From assembly GCF_000515335.1 (NCBI RefSeq), contig NZ_KI911563.1, positions 2,124,056 to 2,188,055 of the forward strand: DNA of 64,000 bases. Reading direction: 5' to 3'. Position 1 is the stretch's first letter. Each line of letters opens with the position of its first letter. The notes beneath the pieces are model-generated. The model did not search any database and was not told the DNA's origin. It saw only the letters and a list, made by a program, of their open reading frames with translations. Both the position numbers and the translations under genes were made by a program. This DNA comes from Cohnella panacarvi Gsoil 349. Its GTDB lineage: Bacteria > Bacillota > Bacilli > Paenibacillales > Paenibacillaceae. Of this stretch, positions 7,375 through 31,155 are shown in pieces.

Positions 7375-8561
7375 GTCGCGCGGATCGTCCCGAACTGCGT
7401 GGACAAATACAAGAGGAACAACGTCAGTACGCAACCCATGCCGATAACGGCCCAATTGACCGACATATCCATCTCGGTAAGGAACAAGTAAATGCCTAAC
7501 CCGACGACCGTAATGGCGTTCTCCACGAAATTCTGAACCGCGATCGTCCTGCCGGAGCCGATGGCGGTTTTGCCTTCTTCTTGAAGCATCGTGTTTAGCG
7601 GAATAAGGAATATGCCCCCCATAACTCCCGTAATAAAGAGCAGCGATACCGTGAACGCTACGTGATGCGTGAAGCTTGCGGCCATCACCGAGGCCACCAT
7701 GACGATCCCGTAGAAGAACGAGCGATACAGCTTGCCTTCCGGCACGAGCTTCGGAATCAACACCGCGCTCACGACGACCCCGAAAGCCGTCGCGCCGATA
7801 ATCATCGATTGCTCGTCCGTATCCTCGATGCCGAGATTAACGGGAAGCCACGCGATGAGCGCAATGCGCAGTACAGCCGCGGTAACCCAGAACGCGCTCG
7901 TGCCCAGCAGAGAAAATTTTCCCCTAGGGTTGCGGAACAAGATCGTCATATCGCTGAAAAATTGGCCGGCGGACTTCTTGTAATCGATATTCGGATTTCC
8001 GGCTTTGGCCGGGATAAGCAGCGTCATCGCCAAGGACAGCAAGTAGATGAACAGACAGACGAGAATCGCCGGCAAATCCGAGTTGGCCGCCAGTAATCCG
8101 CCGGCAACGGTACCGGTCAATATCGCGAAGATCGTCGAGCCTTCTACCCAAGCGTTCGCCCTCAGCAGCTCCCCTTCGGATTTCGTCAATTCCGACAGAA
8201 TCCCGTATTTGCCCGGAGAATACACGACCGCGCCGATCCCTACGAAGAAATAACACAGCACGGGCGGAACGCCAAACAACAACAGGAGTATCCCCACGGA
8301 CTTAAGGGCGTTGCCGAGCAACAGTACGCGCGACTTCGCCTTCTTATCCGCGAAAGCTCCGACGAGCGGCGCAAGCAGCACATAGGCGCATAGAATCGCC
8401 ATTTGGATGTACGTAACAACCCCGTCCGGATTGTCCACCTCTTGTCTATTGACCATCCCCACCACGAGGAAAAAATTCAAATTATCGGAGAACGCGCTTA
8501 AGAATTGTGTCCATACGACCGTATTCAATGGCGATAGTTTCTTTCTAAGTCCTTGCAGCAC
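7350..8561 (-). CDS. MFS transporter, LplT (lysophospholipid transporter)-like
   Basis: About 403 residues with 11-12 predicted helices. The N-terminus, LNTVVWTQFLSAFSDNLNFF, and the loop PLVGAFADKKAKSRVLL resemble LplT, which moves lysophospholipids across the inner membrane of bacteria. The start is uncertain. The longest frame opens with TTG at 8591, but GGAAGGCGGG lies inside that extension, eight bases before a GTG at 8561, which I prefer. The 3' end overlaps the convergent small protein gene by 25 bp. No acyltransferase partner is adjacent, so the substrate is an inference. Confidence 0.75.
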   Translation of the reverse strand: MLQGLRKKLSPLNTVVWTQFLSAFSDNLNFFLVVGMVNRQEVDNPDGVVTYIQMAILCAYVLLAPLVGAFADKKAKSRVLLLGNALKSVGILLLLFGVPPVLCYFFVGIGAVVYSPGKYGILSELTKSEGELLRANAWVEGSTIFAILTGTVAGGLLAANSDLPAILVCLFIYLLSLAMTLLIPAKAGNPNIDYKKSAGQFFSDMTILFRNPRGKFSLLGTSAFWVTAAVLRIALIAWLPVNLGIEDTDEQSMIIGATAFGVVVSAVLIPKLVPEGKLYRSFFYGIVMVASVMAASFTHHVAFTVSLLFITGVMGGIFLIPLNTMLQEEGKTAIGSGRTIAVQNFVENAITVVGLGIYLFLTEMDMSVNWAVIGMGCVLTLFLLYLSTQFGTIRATYSRKETT

Positions 8562-11790: not shown

Positions 11791-13911
11791 TTAGGAGAAC
11801 AGCGGCGAGATCCGGACCGCGCAGGATTTAAAGCCCGGCATGCGGCAGGTAGGATCGAGGGCGGGATTCGTCACTTTGTTCACGTTCTGCGTGTCGCCCC
11901 AGTGCATCGGCACGAACACGGTGTCCTCGCGAATCCCGTTCGTGAACCGGCTGCGCAGCACGACGACGCCTCTGCGCGATGCCAGCCGAACGAGCGTTCC
12001 GTCCTTGATGCCGAGTCGCCGCGCCGTTCGCGGGTGGATCTCCACGTACGACTCGACGTCGCGCGCGGCGAGAGAATGGCTTCGCCTCGTCTGGACGCCC
12101 GTCAGATAGTGCGTCAACACCCTGCCCGTCGTCAAGCAAAGCGGGTACAGATCGTCCGTCGGCTCGTCGGGCAGGTGGTTCGCGACCGGTATTAGCTCCG
12201 CCTTCCCGCCTGGATGAGCGAAGGACGATTCGAACAGGCGGTTCGTCCCTTTATGCTCCGGATCGGGACACGGCCAGTACACGCCTTCTTCCTGGCGCAA
12301 CCTCTCGTACGTAATGCCGTAATAATCGGCATGCCCGCCTTTGCTGGCGATCCGAAGCTCTTCGAAAATCTGCTCTGCGGATTCGTATGCAAACCATTGC
12401 TCTTTGCCGAAGCTCTTCGCGATGCCGCACATCACTTGCCAATCGTGCTTCGCCTCTCCGGGCGCAGGCCGACTGCCTTCTCTTAGAAGGACGCGGCCCT
12501 CGAGGTTGGTCAGCGTGCCTTCGTTCTCGATATAGGCCGTTGCCGGCAGCACCAGATCGGCCATGCGAGCCGTCTCCGATAGGAACATATCCGCGACGAC
12601 AAGATAATCCAGCTTCCTAAGCCCTTCTTCCACGAAGTTCGCGTTCGGGTTCGAGACGATCGGATTGGAACTCATGACAATCAGAGCGCGAATTTCCTGC
12701 TGGTGGATTTTCTCCATCATTTCGTACGCGGACACGCCCTTGCCCGGCAAGCTATGGGGATCGACTCCCCATACGCCGGCGATATACGCGCGATCTTCGG
12801 CATTCTCGATCAGCCGGTAACCCGGCAATTGATCGGCCTTCTGCCCGTGCTCCCTGCCTCCTTGACCGTTGCCTTGGCCGGTAACGGCTCCATAACCGGA
12901 GCCGGGCTTGCCGATCTTGCCGGTCATCAGCACGAGATTAAGGAAGCCTCGCACGGCCATATAGCCGTCGGTCTGCTGCTCCACGCCCCTGGCGGTGAAC
13001 ACCATGCCGGAAGCCGCTTTGCCGTATGCGCTCGCCGCTTTGCGAATGTCCGCGGAAGGAACGCCGGTCAACTCCGCGATTTCTTCCAAATCCAGCTGAT
13101 TGAGGTGCGCCTTCAGCTCGCCGTAACCGGTCGTTCGCTCGTTTAAGAACAGCGGATCGACCAAGCCTTCCTCGAGCACGACTTTCTGCAAACCGTTGGC
13201 AAGCGCCGCGTCCATCCCCGGCTTGACCTTCAGGTGCAGGTCCGCCATTGCCGTCGTCCCCGTCTCGCGCGGATCGATGACGATGAAAAAGGCGCCGTTC
13301 TCTTTCGCCCTCGTGAAGTAAGGCATAAGCGTCGGCTGGCACTCCGCGATGTTCGTGCCCGCCAGAATAATACACTTCGCAAGGCCGATATCCGATAACG
13401 GGTTCGTAAGCCCCCGGTCGACGCCGAACGCTTTGTTGCCCGCCGACGCGGCGGCGGACATGCAGAAGCGCCCGTTGTAGTCGATGTACTTGGTCTGCAG
13501 GGCGACGCGGGCGAACTTGCCGAGCAAATACGCGGACTCGTTCGTCAGGGAGCCGCCGCCGTAGACGCCGATCGAATCGTAGCCATATCGGCTGCGAAGC
13601 TCCGAAAACTTATGATGAATGCGGTTGTAGGCTTCATCCCATGAGATACGCACGAATTCGCCGTCGATGCGCGCCATCGGATATAGGATGCGCTCGGCCG
13701 TGAGCGCATGCTGGTATGCGTTCATGCCTTTAATGCATAGCCGGCCTTCGGATGCGGCGTTCGGTTTCGGGACTACCGTGAATATAGGCGCCTTGCCCGC
13801 GGACTTCTCTTCGATGACTTGCATCTTGCATTGCACGCTGCAGAACGGACATTGCGTGTCGAAGACCGACCTTGTCTCGTGCGATTCGGCGGAATTAAGG
13901 TTTACGCTCAT
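11791..13911 (-). CDS. nasC: assimilatory nitrate reductase catalytic subunit
   Basis: A 706-residue cytoplasmic molybdopterin oxidoreductase that reduces nitrate to nitrite. The N-terminal 4Fe-4S motif is CPFCSVQCKM with Cys21, Cys24, Cys28 and Cys59. The molybdopterin-binding core follows, with GVYGGGSLTNESAYLLGKFAR, GKPGSGYGAVTGQGNGQGG and the C-terminal dinucleotide-binding domain (LCLTTGRVLTHYLTGVQTRRS). It lacks a C-terminal 2Fe-2S domain, like the Bacillus enzyme, which takes electrons from NasB. The ATG directly follows the nasB stop codon and is preceded by AGGTGAG, so the two are translationally linked. It is the last gene of the operon. Confidence 0.9.
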   Translation of the reverse strand: MSVNLNSAESHETRSVFDTQCPFCSVQCKMQVIEEKSAGKAPIFTVVPKPNAASEGRLCIKGMNAYQHALTAERILYPMARIDGEFVRISWDEAYNRIHHKFSELRSRYGYDSIGVYGGGSLTNESAYLLGKFARVALQTKYIDYNGRFCMSAAASAGNKAFGVDRGLTNPLSDIGLAKCIILAGTNIAECQPTLMPYFTRAKENGAFFIVIDPRETGTTAMADLHLKVKPGMDAALANGLQKVVLEEGLVDPLFLNERTTGYGELKAHLNQLDLEEIAELTGVPSADIRKAASAYGKAASGMVFTARGVEQQTDGYMAVRGFLNLVLMTGKIGKPGSGYGAVTGQGNGQGGREHGQKADQLPGYRLIENAEDRAYIAGVWGVDPHSLPGKGVSAYEMMEKIHQQEIRALIVMSSNPIVSNPNANFVEEGLRKLDYLVVADMFLSETARMADLVLPATAYIENEGTLTNLEGRVLLREGSRPAPGEAKHDWQVMCGIAKSFGKEQWFAYESAEQIFEELRIASKGGHADYYGITYERLRQEEGVYWPCPDPEHKGTNRLFESSFAHPGGKAELIPVANHLPDEPTDDLYPLCLTTGRVLTHYLTGVQTRRSHSLAARDVESYVEIHPRTARRLGIKDGTLVRLASRRGVVVLRSRFTNGIREDTVFVPMHWGDTQNVNKVTNPALDPTCRMPGFKSCAVRISPLFS

Positions 13912-16272
13912 CTATCTCACCTGACCTATCGCAGCTTCCGACTGCCGTTGTGTAGTGCTGCCCTCTCGAGCATCCTCGGCCCATTCCAGTTGCCGGTCCA
14001 GCAAACCTTGCCGATAAGCGCGGTTAAAGAGCTGCTCTCGCAGGTTGATCAAGCCGACGCGGTCGATCCATTCGCCCGTCGTCTCCCCGTACCAGCCGTT
14101 CTCGGCATAGGCTTGCAGGAACGCCGCCGCCATCTCGATCGCGCCGCCGTCCTCGGACTCGGTGCACAATAGCTGCGCTTGGCGCAACGTCCCTCGAGCG
14201 TTGCCGCCCACGTGCAGCTCCCAGCCGCCCGGCGCCCCGACGATGCCGAGGTCCTTGGCGAGCGTGCCCGCCCGGTGCAGCGGACTGCCTGATACGGCGA
14301 CCGCGACAGGCGCGGGCGTCTGCGCGCGCTCCAGTCGGCGTTCCAACTCCGCGGCAAGGCTAACCGAGTCCTGAAGCGCAAGAGGGTCGTACGCCATGCC
14401 GTCGCAGGCGGTCACCGACACCGGATAGCCATAAGAGCGGCCGGCTACAGGCATGTTCAACGCAACTTCCACGTCGGCTACCCGTTCGCGAACGACGCCG
14501 AGCAGATCAAGCCGTCCATCGCTAAGCTTCGCGTGCGGGATGCCGTATGTCTCGATAACATCCGCGATATTGCGAAGCTGATCGGCTCCGACATATCCGC
14601 CGTACGTGCGGGGCCGCACCTTGTAGGTACCGTCCGCTAGCGCAGGCGAAGAGGAAGCAGCGGCAGCTGGACCATGCGCACATCCCAGATAATAACGAAT
14701 CGCGGGGCCGCACTTCTCGCAGCCGTCCGTCGTCAGCCACCCGAGTCCGGCTCGCGCGGCTGCCGAAGACGCATATCCGCCTAACGCGATCGCCTGCCTC
14801 AACTCGTCATGAGCCAGCGACGTGCAAGCACATACCGTCTCTTTGGGCGTTTCCGCACCCGCTCCGTTCTCCAGCGTCACTTTCAGGAGCGCCGAGACGA
14901 GAGGTTTGCACCCGCCGCATGAGCTGGACGCTCTCGTGCATTCCCGAACCTGCTCGAACGTCTCGAGCCCTTCCTGCCGAATCGCCGTCACGATCATTCC
15001 CTTGGACACGCCGTTGCAGGAACAGATCGTCTCTTTGTCCGACAGCTCGCAGACGTAAGACTCATCCGCATCCGCGCCTTGCCCGCCGCCTTGCTTCGCT
15101 TCGAGAACGGACACATCGGCGCCTTGCTTAATATAGCCGAGCAGTTGATTGCCCTCCGAGCTATCGCCGTACAGTACCGCGCCGACGATTCGGTTGCCTT
15201 GGACGGTCACTTTCTTGTACGTCCGGTTGATCGTATTCATTACCTTGAGAGAAGCCGTCACTTCCGTATCGCGAATTTCCCCGGCGGAGAATACTTCGAC
15301 TCCCGACACCTTCAGTTGCGAATACAATACCGAGCCTTGATACCCCTCGGTCGCCGAGCCGCAGACCGCTTTGGCTAGCACTTTACCTTGCTCGTAGAGC
15401 GGCGCGACGAGCCCGTACACCGTGCCTCTATGCTCCGCGCATTCCCCGACCGCATAGACGTTCGGAATGCTGGTCTCCATCCGATCGTTCACGACGATCG
15501 CGCGGTTGACCGCTATGCCGGAATCGATGGCCAGTTGCACGTTCGGCTTGATGCCGACGGCCATGACAACCAGATCGGCGAGCACCCTCGTTCCGTCCTT
15601 GAACTGCAGCCCTTCCGCGCGCTTGCGTCCGATCACTTTCTCCGTATGCTTTTCAAGCAGGAACCGCATTCCCTGAGACTCCAGCTCCGCCCGCAACAGC
15701 TCGGCCGCGTCGGGGTCCAACTGACGATCCATCAGATGATGGAAAATGTGGACGACGCTAACCTCCATGCCCAAATTGAGCAATCCCCGCGCCGCTTCTA
15801 ATCCGAGCAACCCCCCGCCTATTACGACGGCACGCTTATGTTTGCGGGACGCTTCGAGCATCGTATTGCAATCGCTGATATCGCGGAATGCCGTAACCCC
15901 GGGCAAATCTCCTCCCGGAAGATTCAGCATGAACGGAAGCGATCCCGTTGCTAGGATGAGCCTATCGTACTTCACGGTTATGCCTTGCTCGCTTAAGACT
16001 TCTTGCTTCAACGTGTCGATCGCGATGACAGGGTCTCCGGCATGGAGCGCAATGCCGCGGTCTTTGTACCACTGCCAGTCGTTGATCGTAATGTCGGAAA
16101 TCCGCGTGTCGCCTTGCAGCACCTTGGAGAGCATGATGCGATTGTAGTTCGGGTGCGGTTCCCGTCCGAATATCGTAATCTCGAACCGATCCGGCTCGAG
16201 CTTAAGGATCTCTTCGATGCATCGCACGCCGGCCATGCCGTTGCCGATGAGCACAAGCTTTAACTTCTCCAT
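13912..16272 (-). CDS. nasB: nitrate reductase electron-transfer subunit (NasB-type flavoprotein)
   Basis: A 786-residue protein that passes electrons from NAD(P)H to NasC. In order it has an FAD-binding domain (VLIGNGMAGVRC near residue 7), an NAD-binding segment (VVIGGGLLGLEAARGL near 148), a BFD-type 2Fe-2S domain (ETICSCNGVSKG ... CTRASSSCGGCKPL near 418-455), a second cysteine cluster (VCACTS ... GCEKCGPA), then a C-terminal half related to nitrite/sulfite reductase. In that half the cluster ligands seen in nasD are mostly lost: NasD GCPRNCAEA corresponds to GSPLHRAGT here. It is thus a carrier rather than a reductase. Start supported by GAGAGG and GAGGG upstream. Confidence 0.87.
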   Translation of the reverse strand: MEKLKLVLIGNGMAGVRCIEEILKLEPDRFEITIFGREPHPNYNRIMLSKVLQGDTRISDITINDWQWYKDRGIALHAGDPVIAIDTLKQEVLSEQGITVKYDRLILATGSLPFMLNLPGGDLPGVTAFRDISDCNTMLEASRKHKRAVVIGGGLLGLEAARGLLNLGMEVSVVHIFHHLMDRQLDPDAAELLRAELESQGMRFLLEKHTEKVIGRKRAEGLQFKDGTRVLADLVVMAVGIKPNVQLAIDSGIAVNRAIVVNDRMETSIPNVYAVGECAEHRGTVYGLVAPLYEQGKVLAKAVCGSATEGYQGSVLYSQLKVSGVEVFSAGEIRDTEVTASLKVMNTINRTYKKVTVQGNRIVGAVLYGDSSEGNQLLGYIKQGADVSVLEAKQGGGQGADADESYVCELSDKETICSCNGVSKGMIVTAIRQEGLETFEQVRECTRASSSCGGCKPLVSALLKVTLENGAGAETPKETVCACTSLAHDELRQAIALGGYASSAAARAGLGWLTTDGCEKCGPAIRYYLGCAHGPAAAASSSPALADGTYKVRPRTYGGYVGADQLRNIADVIETYGIPHAKLSDGRLDLLGVVRERVADVEVALNMPVAGRSYGYPVSVTACDGMAYDPLALQDSVSLAAELERRLERAQTPAPVAVAVSGSPLHRAGTLAKDLGIVGAPGGWELHVGGNARGTLRQAQLLCTESEDGGAIEMAAAFLQAYAENGWYGETTGEWIDRVGLINLREQLFNRAYRQGLLDRQLEWAEDAREGSTTQRQSEAAIGQVR

Positions 16273-16296: not shown

Positions 16297-16632
16297 TTAC
16301 GAGACGAGAATATGTTCGTCATCGACATGAAGCCATATCGTTCCGGAAACCTCGTCGACTTCCACCTCGAACGTCGTCACGCAGCCTTCGTCCGGCGCTT
16401 GCACGAGACCGTCCGTCAGATTGATTTTCCAATCGTGCAGCGGGCAGAATACGTGATGATCGCACACGATTCCTTCCGAAAGCTTGCCGCCCTTATGCGG
16501 GCACCGGTTCTCCACGGCCCGGAAAGTGCCGTCCGAAAGTTTAAACAATGCGATTTCGAGCTCGCCGATCCGTATCGTGCGCGACCTGCGTTCTCCGATT
16601 TCCGAGATCGATCCGATTGCGATTCGTTTCAT
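16297..16632 (-). CDS. nasE: nitrite reductase small subunit, Rieske-type
   Basis: A 111-residue protein with one Rieske 2Fe-2S domain: CPHKGG and CPLHDW give the Cys-x-His ... Cys-x2-His ligands near residues 43-65. NirD/NasE proteins partner the large siroheme subunit in reducing nitrite to ammonium. The ATG at 16632 follows AGGAGGGGG seven bases upstream; a Met eight codons earlier lies before that ribosome binding site. It sits between nasD and nasB, whereas in Bacillus subtilis nasE follows nasD downstream of nasBC. Confidence 0.88.
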   Translation of the reverse strand: MKRIAIGSISEIGERRSRTIRIGELEIALFKLSDGTFRAVENRCPHKGGKLSEGIVCDHHVFCPLHDWKINLTDGLVQAPDEGCVTTFEVEVDEVSGTIWLHVDDEHILVS

Positions 16633-16660
16633 GCTGCTTCCCCCTCCTTCTCTCATCCGA

Positions 16661-19090
16661 TTAGCTTTGCGCCGCGCTGACGATCGGAACGAACGTGTCG
16701 TTCAGCTTTTTCTCCGCGATAATCTCTTGCCATGGATCTTTCGTCAGCCCGAGCGTACGCTCGATTCGCGCGACGAGAGCGTGGCGATCTTCCTGCTTCT
16801 CGAGAGCCGCTTTGATCGTGTCGAGGCCGATGCGCTCCAACCACTCGGACGTGCGTTCGTTGTACTTGCCGGTCTCCCTGTAAAATTGCAAGTACGCGCC
16901 GGACCATTCCAGCACTTCTTCCTCGGTCTTCACCCGGCACAGCACGTCGGTGCCGCGCAGCTTCGTGCCGCCGTTGCCGCCGACATGCAGCTCCCAGCCG
17001 CCGTCGATCGCGATAACGCCGAAGTCTTTGATCGTCGCTTCCGCGCAGTTGCGCGGGCAGCCCGATACGGCCATCTTCACTTTCGCCGGCGTGTTCAATC
17101 GCTCGAACTTCTTCTCGAGCTGGATACCCATGCCGATCGAATCCTGCGTGCCGAAGCGGCAGAAGGTCGAGCCGACGCACGTCTTGACCGTCCGCAGCGC
17201 CTTGCCGTACGCGTAGCCCGACGGCATGTCGAGGTCGGCCCACATGGCGGGCAGATCCTCCTTCTTCACGCCGAGCAAGTCGATGCGCTGGCCGCCGGTA
17301 ATCTTCACGAGAGGCACCTCGTACTTGTCGGCGATCTGGGCGATCCGAATCAAATCCTTCGGCGTCGTTACGCCGCCGTACATCCGAGGCACGACCGAAT
17401 ACGTGCCGTCCTTCTGAATATTGGCATGGTTGCGCTCGTTGACGAACCGGGATTCGCGCTCCTCCTCGTGCTCCTCCGGCCACACCATGCCGAGGTAATA
17501 GTTCAACGCCGGACGGCACTTCGAGCAGCCTTCCGGGTTGCTCCATTCGAGCACGTTCATGACTTCCTTCGAGGTCGTCAGACGCATGCCGCGGATCGCT
17601 TCGACGACCTCGTCGCGCCCAAGCGTCGTACAGCCGCAAATACCTTCCTTCACCGCTTTGACGCCGTCCGCGCCGACGACGCAGGTAAGCAAATCGGCGA
17701 CGAGAGGCTTGCAGCCTCCGCAAGAAGCGGACGCCTTCGTGCATGCCTTGATCTCGTTCACGCTCGCGCAGCCTTTCTCTTGGATCGCTTGCACGATAGC
17801 GCCTTTGCTGACGCCGTTGCACCCGCAAATAATCTCGTCGTCGCTCATCGCCGCTACGAGCTCTACGCCGGACTTGGCCGTTCCGCCTCCCGCGCTTGCG
17901 CCAAGCAGCACTTCCTTCTCCTTGCCCGTCACGTCTTCGCCGCTGCGGATGAGCGAGAAGATGCGGGAGCCGTCGGTCGTATCCCCGAACAGCACCGCTC
18001 CGATCACTTTGCCGCCGCGAATGACGACTTTCTTGTATATGCCGTCCACTTCGTCTTGAAGGCGAACCGCGCGCGTATCCGGCGCGTCTTTGAACTCCCC
18101 TGCCGAGAACACGTTGACCCCCGAAACCTTCAACTTCGTGGAGACGACCGAGCCTTGGTAGCCTTGCCCCGTCTCGGCGCCAGCGAGCCGCTTGGCCAGC
18201 ACCGCGCCTTGTTCATACAGCGGCGCAACAAGACCGTACGCAATGCCGCGATGCTCCGCGCATTCGCCGACCGCCGAGATATGCGGGACGCTCGTCTCCA
18301 GGTAATCGTTCACGACGATGCCGCGATTCACGTCAATGCCGCTGGACTTGGCCAGCGAGACGTTCGGGCGAATGCCGACCGCCATAACGACGAGATCCGT
18401 CGCGACTTCCGAGCCGTCGGTGAAGCGGACGCCGGTCACTCTCCGCCGGCCGATAATCGAATCCGTGTTTTTGGAAAGCAGGAATTTCATGCCTTGGCCT
18501 TCCAGCTCGCGCTGCAGCATGACGGAAGCCGACTGGTCAAGCTGGCGCTCCATCAGATAAGGGTGAATGTGCACGACCGAAACTTCCATGCCCAGATTGA
18601 GCAAGCCGCGCGCCGCTTCGAGACCGAGCAGGCCGCCGCCGATGACGAGCGCCTTCTTGAACTTGCGGCTCGTCTCGATCATCGTCTCGCAGTCTTTAAT
18701 ATCGCGGAAAGCGATGACGCCTTCCTTGTCCGCCCCGGTCAAAGGAAGCATGAAAGGCAGCGACCCCGTCGCGATAATCAGCTCGTCGTAAGGTACGCTA
18801 ATGCCTCCGTCCGTGCCGACCGTCTTGCGCTCGCCGTCGATCCGGGTTACCGTCTGCCCGGTATATAAGGTAATGTCGTTCTCTTCGTACCAGGACCAGT
18901 CGTTGATGACGATGTCGCGCATGCCGGCATCGCCGGCGAGCACGGACGAGAGCAAGATCCGGTTATAGTTCGGATGCGGTTCGCTCCCGAAGATCGTAAT
19001 CTCATAGCGATTCGGAGCCAGCTTCAGCAACTGTTCGATACAGCTGACGCCGGCCATTCCGTTCCCGATCAACACCAGTTTTTTCTTCAT
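16661..19090 (-). CDS. nasD: NAD(P)H nitrite reductase large subunit
   Basis: An 809-residue enzyme that reduces nitrite to ammonium. Order of parts: FAD domain (VLIGNGMAGVSC at the N-terminus), NAD-binding segment (VIGGGLLGLEAARGL near 150), BFD-type 2Fe-2S domain (EIICGCNGVSKG ... CTKASASCGGCKPL), a second cysteine-rich unit (ICGCTT ... GCSKCRPA), and the siroheme/4Fe-4S domain with TCVGSTFCRFG and SGCPRNCAEA supplying four cysteine ligands near residues 635-680. The start is the ATG at 19090, preceded by AGGGGAG; the upstream ATG at 19120 has no ribosome binding site. First gene of the operon, behind two GlnR-like boxes. Confidence 0.92.
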   Translation of the reverse strand: MKKKLVLIGNGMAGVSCIEQLLKLAPNRYEITIFGSEPHPNYNRILLSSVLAGDAGMRDIVINDWSWYEENDITLYTGQTVTRIDGERKTVGTDGGISVPYDELIIATGSLPFMLPLTGADKEGVIAFRDIKDCETMIETSRKFKKALVIGGGLLGLEAARGLLNLGMEVSVVHIHPYLMERQLDQSASVMLQRELEGQGMKFLLSKNTDSIIGRRRVTGVRFTDGSEVATDLVVMAVGIRPNVSLAKSSGIDVNRGIVVNDYLETSVPHISAVGECAEHRGIAYGLVAPLYEQGAVLAKRLAGAETGQGYQGSVVSTKLKVSGVNVFSAGEFKDAPDTRAVRLQDEVDGIYKKVVIRGGKVIGAVLFGDTTDGSRIFSLIRSGEDVTGKEKEVLLGASAGGGTAKSGVELVAAMSDDEIICGCNGVSKGAIVQAIQEKGCASVNEIKACTKASASCGGCKPLVADLLTCVVGADGVKAVKEGICGCTTLGRDEVVEAIRGMRLTTSKEVMNVLEWSNPEGCSKCRPALNYYLGMVWPEEHEEERESRFVNERNHANIQKDGTYSVVPRMYGGVTTPKDLIRIAQIADKYEVPLVKITGGQRIDLLGVKKEDLPAMWADLDMPSGYAYGKALRTVKTCVGSTFCRFGTQDSIGMGIQLEKKFERLNTPAKVKMAVSGCPRNCAEATIKDFGVIAIDGGWELHVGGNGGTKLRGTDVLCRVKTEEEVLEWSGAYLQFYRETGKYNERTSEWLERIGLDTIKAALEKQEDRHALVARIERTLGLTKDPWQEIIAEKKLNDTFVPIVSAAQS

Positions 19091-19162
19091 GTTAGCCACT
19101 CCCCTACTCTTATCTAACATGTAATGTTATATATATGATGTAGTTAACCGATTAATAGTGTC

Positions 19163-19191
19163 ATTATGTCATATAATATTACGCATAACAA
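19163..19191 (-). promoter_or_regulatory. nas operon promoter
   Basis: Read on the minus strand: TTGTTA (19191-19186), a 17-base spacer, then CATAAT (19168-19163), about 70 bases upstream of the nasD start codon. The spacer is occupied by a GlnR/TnrA-like box, so a bound regulator would block the polymerase. Confidence 0.5.
19167..19188. promoter_or_regulatory. GlnR/TnrA-like box, promoter-proximal
   Basis: TGTCATATAATATTACG matches the nitrogen-regulator consensus TGTNA-N7-TNACA with one mismatch in the last base. It overlaps the -35 to -10 spacer of the nas promoter, a repressing position. It is 21/22 identical, in inverted orientation, to the box at 19246-19267. Confidence 0.65.
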
Positions 19192-19245
19192 GTGAAGTGT
19201 TTCGTAAAACCGTTCGATTTTTTCGATGAATCTGATAAATCCTCT

Positions 19246-19267
19246 TTATGCGTAAAATTATATGACA
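19246..19267. promoter_or_regulatory. GlnR/TnrA-like box, promoter-distal
   Basis: CGTAAAATTATATGACA matches TGTNA-N7-TNACA with one mismatch in its first base. It lies about 80 bp upstream of the proximal box, an activating or looping position, and is an inverted copy of it with one base difference over 22. Confidence 0.65.
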
Positions 19268-19274
19268 CAAAAAA

Positions 19275-19297
19275 GAAGGGCGCCTAAGACGCCCTTC
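19275..19297 (-). terminator. terminator of the YdjO-like gene
   Basis: GAAGGGCG/CGCCCTTC stem; on the minus strand it is followed by TTCTTTTTTGTG. It insulates the nas regulatory region from the YdjO-like gene. Confidence 0.8.
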
Positions 19298-19335
19298 CTG
19301 GTTCGGTGCTCTATATTCCATTCCTCTTATCGATG

Positions 19336-19545
19336 CTACCTCATCGAGCGGCTTTTGCCCGTGTTGACCAATTGCGGCAGCATCCTCATCCCGCTGACCA
19401 TCGGCGTTTGACATACATGACAGGTAGGGATGGCTTCAAGGGAGAAATTATCTCTCATCCACCCGTTGCAGCCCTCGCTCTCGCACGACCATATCGCCGT
19501 CATTTCCTCCGGGATTTCCTCGAACGTCTTTTTCCGAGAATACAT
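19336..19545 (-). CDS. YdjO-like cold-inducible small zinc-ribbon protein
   Basis: A 69-residue protein resembling Bacillus YdjO. It has two cysteine pairs, WSCESEGCNGWMRDNFSLE and PTCHVCQTPM, in a treble-clef-like Cys-x4-Cys ... Cys-x2-Cys layout, and a C-terminal GMRMLPQL motif typical of the family. The ATG at 19545 is preceded by GGAGGGG; longer frames run back through the Csp terminator and are unlikely. Its position right after a cold-shock gene on the same strand fits the reported cold induction of YdjO, though its biochemical role is unknown. Confidence 0.75.
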   Translation of the reverse strand: MYSRKKTFEEIPEEMTAIWSCESEGCNGWMRDNFSLEAIPTCHVCQTPMVSGMRMLPQLVNTGKSRSMR

Positions 19546-19622
19546 GGACGGACCCCTCCAATTCAAAGTCGATTTAGCATACCCAAGTTCGGATGGATTA
19601 GCCATATGCGCGAACCGAATAA

Positions 19623-19658
19623 AAAAGTCCTTGGCGATCGGAATCGCCAAGGACTTTT
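19623..19658 (-). terminator. terminator of the cold-shock gene
   Basis: A perfect 16-bp stem, AAAAGTCCTTGGCGAT with ATCGCCAAGGACTTTT, followed on the minus strand by further T residues. It lies 13 bp past the Csp stop codon. Confidence 0.9.
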
Positions 19659-29684: not shown

Positions 29685-30173
29685 TTACAGAGGAATAACT
29701 TTAACGGCCGCTTGTTTGCCTCCGAGCTGGATGCCGGTCTCCTTGCGGCCGCTCGCGGCCAAGTCCTTCAGCATTCTCTCCAGCAATCGCTTCGCCTGCG
29801 GACCTTCTTTGCCTTGGAGCTTAACGACGAGCTGCACCGCGTTCCCGGAAACCAGAAGCTTGTCCGCCTGACGGCATTTCGTATCGTAGTCGTGATCTTC
29901 TATGTTCGCCGTTAAACGTATTTCCTTCACTTTCAATGGACCTTCTTGCTTGCGAACGGCCTGCTTCTCCTTCGAAGCCTCTTGCTTAGCCATCCCTCTT
30001 GCCGTCAGCTTGCAGGGAGGAGGACTGCTGAACAGCGATGTGCAGACGAGATCGGCTTTGAGCTCCCGCGCCATCTTCAGCGCATCATCGCGCGACACGA
30101 CGCCCAGGTCCTCGCCGTTTAGACCCGTCAACGACACTTCGGCCGATTTTATTTTCTCGTTCATAATGAGCAT
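29685..30173 (-). CDS. infC: divergent translation initiation factor IF-3 paralogue
   Basis: A 162-residue protein with the two-domain IF-3 layout: MNEKIKSAEVSLTGLNGEDLGVVSRDDALKMA at the N-terminus and a C-domain KVKEIRLTANIEDHDYDTKCRQADKLL ... VVKLQGKEGPQAKRLLERMLKDLA. It departs from canonical IF-3 in the linker, where PPPCKLTARGMAKQEASK replaces the near-universal PPVCRIMDYGKFRFEQ. It is not next to rpmI and rplT, and lies behind a TPP riboswitch and terminator. It is therefore probably a specialised second copy rather than the housekeeping gene. GGGAGGTCCAACTCAC precedes the ATG. Confidence 0.82.
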   Translation of the reverse strand: MLIMNEKIKSAEVSLTGLNGEDLGVVSRDDALKMARELKADLVCTSLFSSPPPCKLTARGMAKQEASKEKQAVRKQEGPLKVKEIRLTANIEDHDYDTKCRQADKLLVSGNAVQLVVKLQGKEGPQAKRLLERMLKDLAASGRKETGIQLGGKQAAVKVIPL

Positions 30174-30228
30174 GTGAGTTGGACCTCCCGCATATCGAAC
30201 GTCGGTTATTGTCCGGCCGCCTTCCATC

Positions 30229-30382: not shown

Positions 30383-30449
30383 GTTCGCGATTTCAACTTA
30401 ATATAAAGTAACCTAACGTCACCCGTTTGGCAAGCGGCATTTGTTCGTT

Positions 30450-31037
30450 CTACGCGTGCGGAAGATCGCTGAACAGTTCGCCGACAACGAACGCTGCGCA
30501 AGGCAGCTTGTCCGAAGACACCGCATCATTCTCCTCGAACAGATCGCGCAGCTCGTAAACGCCGGCTTCCGTCAGCACGTACCGTTCAATCGTCCGCGCC
30601 TTCGTCTCGACCACCCAATACTCCGGCACGCCGTGTTTGGCGTAAATTCGCATCTTCACGACTTTGTCCCGGGCCCTTGAGCTCGGAGATAAAATCTCTA
30701 CGATAAGATCCGGGGCTCCTTCCACGCCGCGTTCCGTGACGATGTTAGCGCGATTGCGATGGACGAGGAGCAAATCGGGCTGGAGCACGTTCCTGTGGCT
30801 TAAAATCACGTCGAGAGGCGCGTAGAAGATGAGATATTCAGATTTGCAACTTTGCATTACGAGGAGCAGTTCCCTGCTAACCGTCTGATGCGTCGCGGTA
30901 GGCGACGGCGACATCGCCTCGAGCACGCCGTCGAATACTTCGTATCGCATGCCGTCGTCCGGCATGCTGGCATAGACATCGTACGTGACCGGCTGCTCCT
31001 TCACGCGATCTTCCTTCGGTTTGCGTTGATCCGTCAT
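30450..31037 (-). CDS. Uma2 family (DUF820) putative restriction-like endonuclease
   Basis: A 195-residue protein of the Uma2 family in the PD-(D/E)XK nuclease fold. The core residues are visible in VLQPDLLLVHRNR (PD, near residue 88) and PDLIVEILSPSSRARD (E-x-L, near 108), plus the C-terminal Tyr/Trp-rich VPEYWVVETKARTIERYVL. Family members are abundant in cyanobacteria and some Firmicutes; their function is unsettled. The ATG at 31037 follows AAAGGGG. It is downstream of topB, separated by a hairpin, and probably transcribed separately. Confidence 0.85.
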   Translation of the reverse strand: MTDQRKPKEDRVKEQPVTYDVYASMPDDGMRYEVFDGVLEAMSPSPTATHQTVSRELLLVMQSCKSEYLIFYAPLDVILSHRNVLQPDLLLVHRNRANIVTERGVEGAPDLIVEILSPSSRARDKVVKMRIYAKHGVPEYWVVETKARTIERYVLTEAGVYELRDLFEENDAVSSDKLPCAAFVVGELFSDLPHA

Positions 31038-31068
31038 CGCTTGTTTCCCCTTTGAACGCAAACACCCT

Positions 31069-31102
31069 TCATTCAAACACGTCGTGTTCGGCCGAAGGGT
31101 GC
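31069..31102 (-). terminator. putative topB terminator
   Basis: CACCCTTC/GAAGGGTG arms with an inner ACACG/CGTGT stem in the 118-bp gap between topB and the Uma2 gene; on the minus strand GTTTGCGTT follows. Confidence 0.5.
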
Positions 31103-31155
31103 TTCCCGTATATGATAAGTTCATTATCCCATAACTCGTCCTCGTGTCAATCCCG

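Follow-up and report, generated by a model that had tools for sequence, protein, structure and literature searches.

In the 64,000-nucleotide stretch of Cohnella panacarvi Gsoil 349 DNA that was analyzed (hereafter, the window), two predicted GlnR boxes precede a minus-strand assimilatory operon, nasD-nasE-nasB-nasC. We consider it probable that both boxes are GlnR operators, the proximal one repressing nasDEBC and the upstream one serving as an accessory site, which most likely activates in the manner of site I of the nif operon, or else strengthens repression. The operon, its upstream neighbor, and the elements lying between them are the following:

11791–13911, minus strand: nasC, assimilatory nitrate reductase catalytic subunit (NF047855, 1200 bits)
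13912–16272, minus strand: second NirB-family protein, putatively a nasB-like electron-transfer subunit (TIGR02374, 778 bits)
16297–16656, minus strand: nasE/nirD, small subunit (TIGR02378, 91.6 bits)
16661–19090, minus strand: nasD/nirB, assimilatory nitrite reductase large subunit (TIGR02374, 1065 bits)
19163–19168, minus strand: predicted extended -10, TG-N-CATAAT, weak, overlapping the proximal box
19164–19188, minus strand: predicted proximal GlnR box (19-nt core 19166–19184, center 19175, 85 bp before the nasD ATG), the best GlnR-matrix match of the window
19186–19191, minus strand: predicted -35, TTGTTA, weak, overlapping the proximal repeat arm
19246–19270, minus strand: predicted upstream GlnR box (19-nt core 19250–19268, center 19259, 169 bp before the nasD ATG), the second-best GlnR-matrix match
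19273–19299, minus strand: intrinsic-terminator-like hairpin after the ydjO-like gene, its T run abutting the upstream box
19336–19650, minus strand: ydjO-like ORF upstream of nas and co-directional with it (PF14169, 2.9e-26)

A repeat search of positions 18950–19600 returned a single inverted repeat, whose 25-nt arms (19164–19188 and 19246–19270) are complementary at 23 of 25 positions (92%) and are separated by 57 nt, the repeat with both arms spanning ~107 bp. The sequence-only reading had described two nearly identical, opposed boxes, the second about 80 bp upstream of the first, and both points hold. The 22-mers at 19167–19188 (plus strand) and 19246–19267 (minus strand) agree at 21 of 22 positions and differ by one base, and the distance between the box centers is 84 bp. 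When the whole genome was searched with the 22-mer, allowing up to three mismatches, it was present only at the two nas boxes, and the reversed control pattern gave no match. Within two mismatches, the 22-mer was found in 7 of the 394 genomes of the family, this one included, and as two copies in this genome only, so that it was rejected as a recurrent motif.

Each nas box departs from the consensus TGTNAN7TNACA by one mismatch, which alone is weak evidence, as 11 such matches occur in the window against 7.8 expected. A GlnR matrix was taken from 24 sites of Paenibacillus polymyxa WLY78 (PMC9948412, Table 1), restricted to 17 supported operons. In a scan of the 64-kb window with this matrix, the nas boxes ranked first (17.0 bits, p ~1e-6) and second (13.8 bits, p ~1e-5). 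Chance matches of at least 12 bits amounted to 0.026 per 400 bp in base-shuffled upstream regions of 23 relatives, and nirB coding sequence, 190,400 bases in all, gave two. The third-best match of the window (13.1 bits) is at 30401–30419, between the minus-strand ORFs 29685–30227 and 30450–31124. In the whole genome, the exact consensus occurs at 28 sites, a slight enrichment over the 21 of the reversed control, and this counts against the GlnR reading. The 15 of these sites with loci were scored, and the genes were checked at eight of the 15; four of the eight are nitrogen genes with strong boxes (two amtB ammonium transporter genes, glnA1, and pucR). Matrix scoring also gave strong GlnR boxes at the paralogue nasD1, while the genome's own glnRA promoter showed no box of at least 10 bits (best, 6.5), another point against that reading.

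The Pfam model MerR_1 matched eight proteins in the genome, and inspection of the translations found a GlnR/TnrA-type recognition region in one of them. The best PDB match of this protein was the GlnR chain 4r4e (E 2.4e-32, vs. 1.3e-14 for TnrA), which we take to be the GlnR of Bacillus subtilis. In NCBIfam it matched no GlnR model, its best match being a TnrA model below the cut-off (77.8 bits vs. 140). The gene that follows it encodes a glutamine synthetase. We thus annotate this MerR-type regulator as GlnR, encoded beside glnA, and as the sole GlnR/TnrA-type protein found in the genome. No TnrA-like protein was present among the eight MerR_1 matches, a search that a relative missed by one Pfam model would escape. 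The earlier designation of the boxes as GlnR/TnrA-like is accordingly kept for GlnR, with the first two matrix ranks and glnR beside glnA in its favor, and dropped for TnrA; that designation also presupposed a GlnR or TnrA gene in the genome, and a GlnR gene is found, next to glnA. The identity of the pair as GlnR boxes is well supported, because of the matrix scores, the glnR-glnA arrangement, the boxes at amtB, glnA1, pucR, and nasD1, and the conservation of the pair described below. Rrf2-family genes gave seven matches in the genome, five of them over the cut-off.

Other loci were also scored with the matrix. A strong GlnR box, of 20.2 bits, separates an ammonium transporter gene from a divergently oriented MerR-family gene of 155–176 aa (locus L101, 1500–1760). 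Two further GlnR-like boxes, spaced by 95 bp, lie between two minus-strand ORFs of 664 and 287 aa (L149, 2032–2145; genome positions 3230031–3230144), and one of these boxes shares the GCGTAA...TGACAT form with the nas boxes. A strong GlnR box lies ~12 bp ahead of the start of a GNAT acetyltransferase gene (L150, 1237–1713, minus strand), which is a candidate for an uncharacterized member of the GlnR regulon. GNAT-like proteins, similar by eye, are encoded divergently from nasD in four Paenibacillus loci (L009, L010, L011, and L013), with a box ~50 bp from their start. The nasD1 paralogue (L136, 3948–7320; genome positions 2111947–2115319) has two GlnR boxes, a divergent gene for an ANTAR-domain protein, and adjoining NarK-like transporter ORFs; there was no Rfam match in L136. 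In the leaders of related genes (L111–L115 and L118–L120), a terminator-like hairpin (GCCTGCT..., then a T run) was recognized by eye, which suggests ANTAR antitermination. At 7620–8838 of L136 (plus strand), the coding sequence of a NarK/MFS-like transporter appears to be divided between ORFs of 195 and 270 aa that overlap in different frames and match the first and second parts of the profile, possibly through a frameshift or a sequencing error.

Conservation was evaluated in 23 orthologues of at least 77% identity, a set without L020 and L022 and with L108 and L109. The proximal box was present in 22 of the 23 (in L108 it was assigned by hand, as the matched gene start sits further downstream), and 20 carried two boxes scoring 12 bits or more inside 600 bp, the second box missing in L003, L016, and L064. 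The boxes of the pair are 84 bp apart in the window, 83 bp in G007, 104 bp in G015, and 177 bp in G005, which is C. cholangitidis and, like G027 (Cohnella sp. CFH 77786), belongs to the same genus. The spacing is 225–230 bp in 12 of the 20 two-box orthologues, and the others have 184, 185, 213 (twice), and 342 bp, for an overall range of 83 to 342 bp. We read the box pair as ancestral. Among 180 nirB-type loci, which hold some genes twice (two collections) as well as the genome's own nasD1 paralogue, 153 had two or more boxes inside 600 bp, 17 had one, and 10 had none. From the family search, its 30 loci and another 60 selected places had their upstream sequence read. Loci L116, L117, and L121–L126 were left out of the final spacing, contrast, and 180-locus analyses; L107 and L110 are duplicates of L055 and L007; and L127–L135, weak or partial matches, were not used.

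The promoter predicted in the window, TTGTTA-17-CATAAT with an extended -10, reached a score, with assumed textbook values as weights, that was equaled by 15% of 300 base shuffles, a control applied to the window promoter. The promoter scan covered 23 relatives (L003–L022, L055, L064, and L072), a set different from the 23 orthologues above. The best-scoring promoter in 20 of them was TTGNNN-17-TANNNT (TTGAAA in 16), and in those 20 (L008 having been rescored) the proximal box is centered +9 to +19 from the inferred start of these predicted promoters; the exceptions are L017, L022, and L055. By its predicted promoter, G015 has the proximal box at +12, and the best-scoring promoter of G007 follows neither pattern. 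For the window, as for G005 (L055), the top-scoring promoter has as its extended -10 the TGACATAAT of the box itself, which places the box at -19. The proposed location of one box within the promoter spacer stands as a prediction for the window and is not supported as a general feature, since in 20 of the 23 relatives the box is downstream of the inferred start. The upstream core of the window ends 58 nt from the predicted -35; because the predicted promoter is weak, this match to the nif distance and the other positions relative to the window promoter are provisional.

Box identity, the presence of GlnR, and conservation of the pair having been computed, we infer GlnR binding, the repression, and the role of the upstream box as follows. 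When glutamine is high, feedback-inhibited glutamine synthetase would stabilize GlnR, and GlnR on the proximal box would block transcription of nasDEBC, in the window by covering the promoter spacer and in most relatives by sitting just past the start site. The upstream box would be an accessory GlnR site retained with the nas operon in evolution, most likely aiding transcription under nitrogen limitation like nif site I, or alternatively strengthening repression.

It is a real possibility, though not the one that we favor, that both boxes only repress, two GlnR dimers, perhaps looped via feedback-inhibited glutamine synthetase, jointly shutting the promoter. In WLY78, nas is repressed by GlnR in both nitrogen states (PMC9948412), and a looping model exists for the nif genes of Paenibacillus riograndensis, as cited inside PMC6191146. 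In addition, paired boxes less than 110 bp apart tend, in the raw data, to lie a whole number of helical turns from each other (n = 49; R = 0.56 for a 10.5-bp turn), and the 84 bp of the window correspond to 8.0 turns. This phasing, which was seen in the raw numbers and in collapsed clusters, was nevertheless lost in phylogenetically disjoint contrasts on the tree, both in the 13 contrasts (V = 0.10, p = 0.31) and when spacings up to 260 bp were taken in (17 contrasts, p = 0.22); controls with box-to-ATG distances in the same contrasts were null too. Since the disjoint contrasts lack phasing, the raw clustering mostly reflects shared descent. Helically phased spacing was the criterion for looping chosen here, and a similarity-based division of the loci into two types did not separate them cleanly and was not used. 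Orthologue spacings from 177 to 230 bp have no common helical phase either, and for nif of P. polymyxa the authors argue against looping, their mutants having given it no support (PMC6191146). With no phasing, with orthologue spacings of 83 to 342 bp, and with the nif authors against it, DNA looping, as put forward in the sequence-only reading, is not supported.

That the upstream box serves another promoter, of a divergent or neighboring gene, and is near nas by chance, is improbable. In some relatives a divergent ORF does lie upstream (MFS-, GNAT-, or chorismate-synthase-like, by inspection), and a GNAT-family gene elsewhere in this genome has its own GlnR box. However, crude ORF calls showed that the upstream genes vary among the orthologue genomes while the upstream box persists, and that the upstream gene is co-directional with nas in several relatives, among them G015, as it is in the window, with the upstream box still present; in G005, the same ydjO-like DNA and then a terminator-like stretch are likewise accompanied by the box. 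Because the upstream genes differ and several are co-directional, nas is most likely the operon that the upstream box belongs to. Very improbable is a repeat that acts as an RNA or DNA hairpin (a leader structure or a cruciform) in place of protein sites. The region, if transcribed through, would fold far better than shuffles (z = -5.8), but relatives do not keep the complementarity (at most 19/25 in 78 within-locus pairs), each box separately retains the GlnR consensus, the upstream box sits before the predicted promoter and just after the terminator, and the locus has no Rfam match. Scarcely credible, finally, is the reading of the pair as the terminal inverted repeats of a small mobile element; a unit of ~107 bp with 25-bp inverted ends has the look of one, yet orthologues of different sequence have boxes at matching places, and the idea is already contradicted by the ends occurring as a single genomic copy, with no further one at up to three mismatches.

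In their best orientation the two nas boxes agree at 17 of 19 positions, which has P ~0.0009 for two independent matrix draws and is also reached by 2 of 79 within-locus pairs in relatives. In a 25-nt comparison centered on the boxes, the window pair agrees at 22 positions (23 in the repeat frame), against a maximum of 19 among 78 relative pairs. We regard the near-identity as peculiar to this genome, a local feature that requires no function. Compared with G005, G015, and G007, the proximal box has four bases found in the window alone, each of which agrees with the upstream copy; the upstream box has two such bases, one matching the proximal copy. These observations, few in number and from a test picked after the data were seen, suggest copying from the upstream to the proximal box. 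It is conceivable, though doubtful, that an inverted-repeat template switch rewrote the proximal box from the upstream one, so that its outer half-site TGACATAAT now also serves as the extended -10, and a downstream roadblock operator became an intra-promoter operator. No TTGAAA/TACATT-type promoter like that of the relatives can be recognized in the window. As for orientation, the pairs in relatives are mixed (43 direct and 35 inverted, n = 78), and GlnR is described as a symmetric dimer on palindromic sites (PMC6191146), for which reasons the opposite facing of the boxes has no clear meaning.

In B. subtilis, the nas and glnRA promoters have the same box consensus, and glnRA also has two GlnR sites (PMC6191146); TnrA activates the nas genes there (PMC9948412), whereas no TnrA-like protein was found among the eight MerR_1 matches of the present genome. 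Closer systems are those of P. polymyxa WLY78, for which PMC9948412 reports binding of GlnR to the nasA, nasD1, and nasD2EF promoters under nitrogen limitation (ChIP-qPCR). Its nasD1 has two boxes like the window, but shares them with the divergent nasA, while the neighbor in the window is the co-directional ydjO-like ORF. Its nasD2EF, unlike the window, has a single box, with the same GCGTAA...TGACAT half-site types. According to the same source, the glnR mutant expresses nasA and nasD more highly than the wild type in either nitrogen state, which favors repression over activation for nas; a distance of 83 to 342 bp in close orthologues would also be unusual for a fixed activator position. 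By analogy with nif, dual activation and repression of nas by GlnR is possible. The earlier suggestion that the layout fits dual control is thus partly supported, by the resemblance of the upstream and proximal boxes to the published nif sites, and is opposed by the lowering of WLY78 nas in both nitrogen states.

The nif-type layout itself, with an upstream and a promoter-proximal box on one promoter, is found at nas. The two-site arrangement known from nif would thereby extend to widespread nas promoters in Paenibacillaceae and neighbors, whose many natural spacing variants could serve to tell apart activation from the upstream site, stronger repression, and looping. In PMC6191146, the nif operon of P. 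polymyxa is described with a repressing site II and, 58 bp ahead of the -35, a site I that activates. As at nas, the nif promoter of WLY78 has one box upstream of the -35 and one near the start, site II lying at +24 and the proximal box at about +17 in most nas relatives (predicted starts). The window differs from nif in its genes, in a proximal box that overlaps the predicted spacer, in the near-identity of its two boxes, and in being known from sequence alone.
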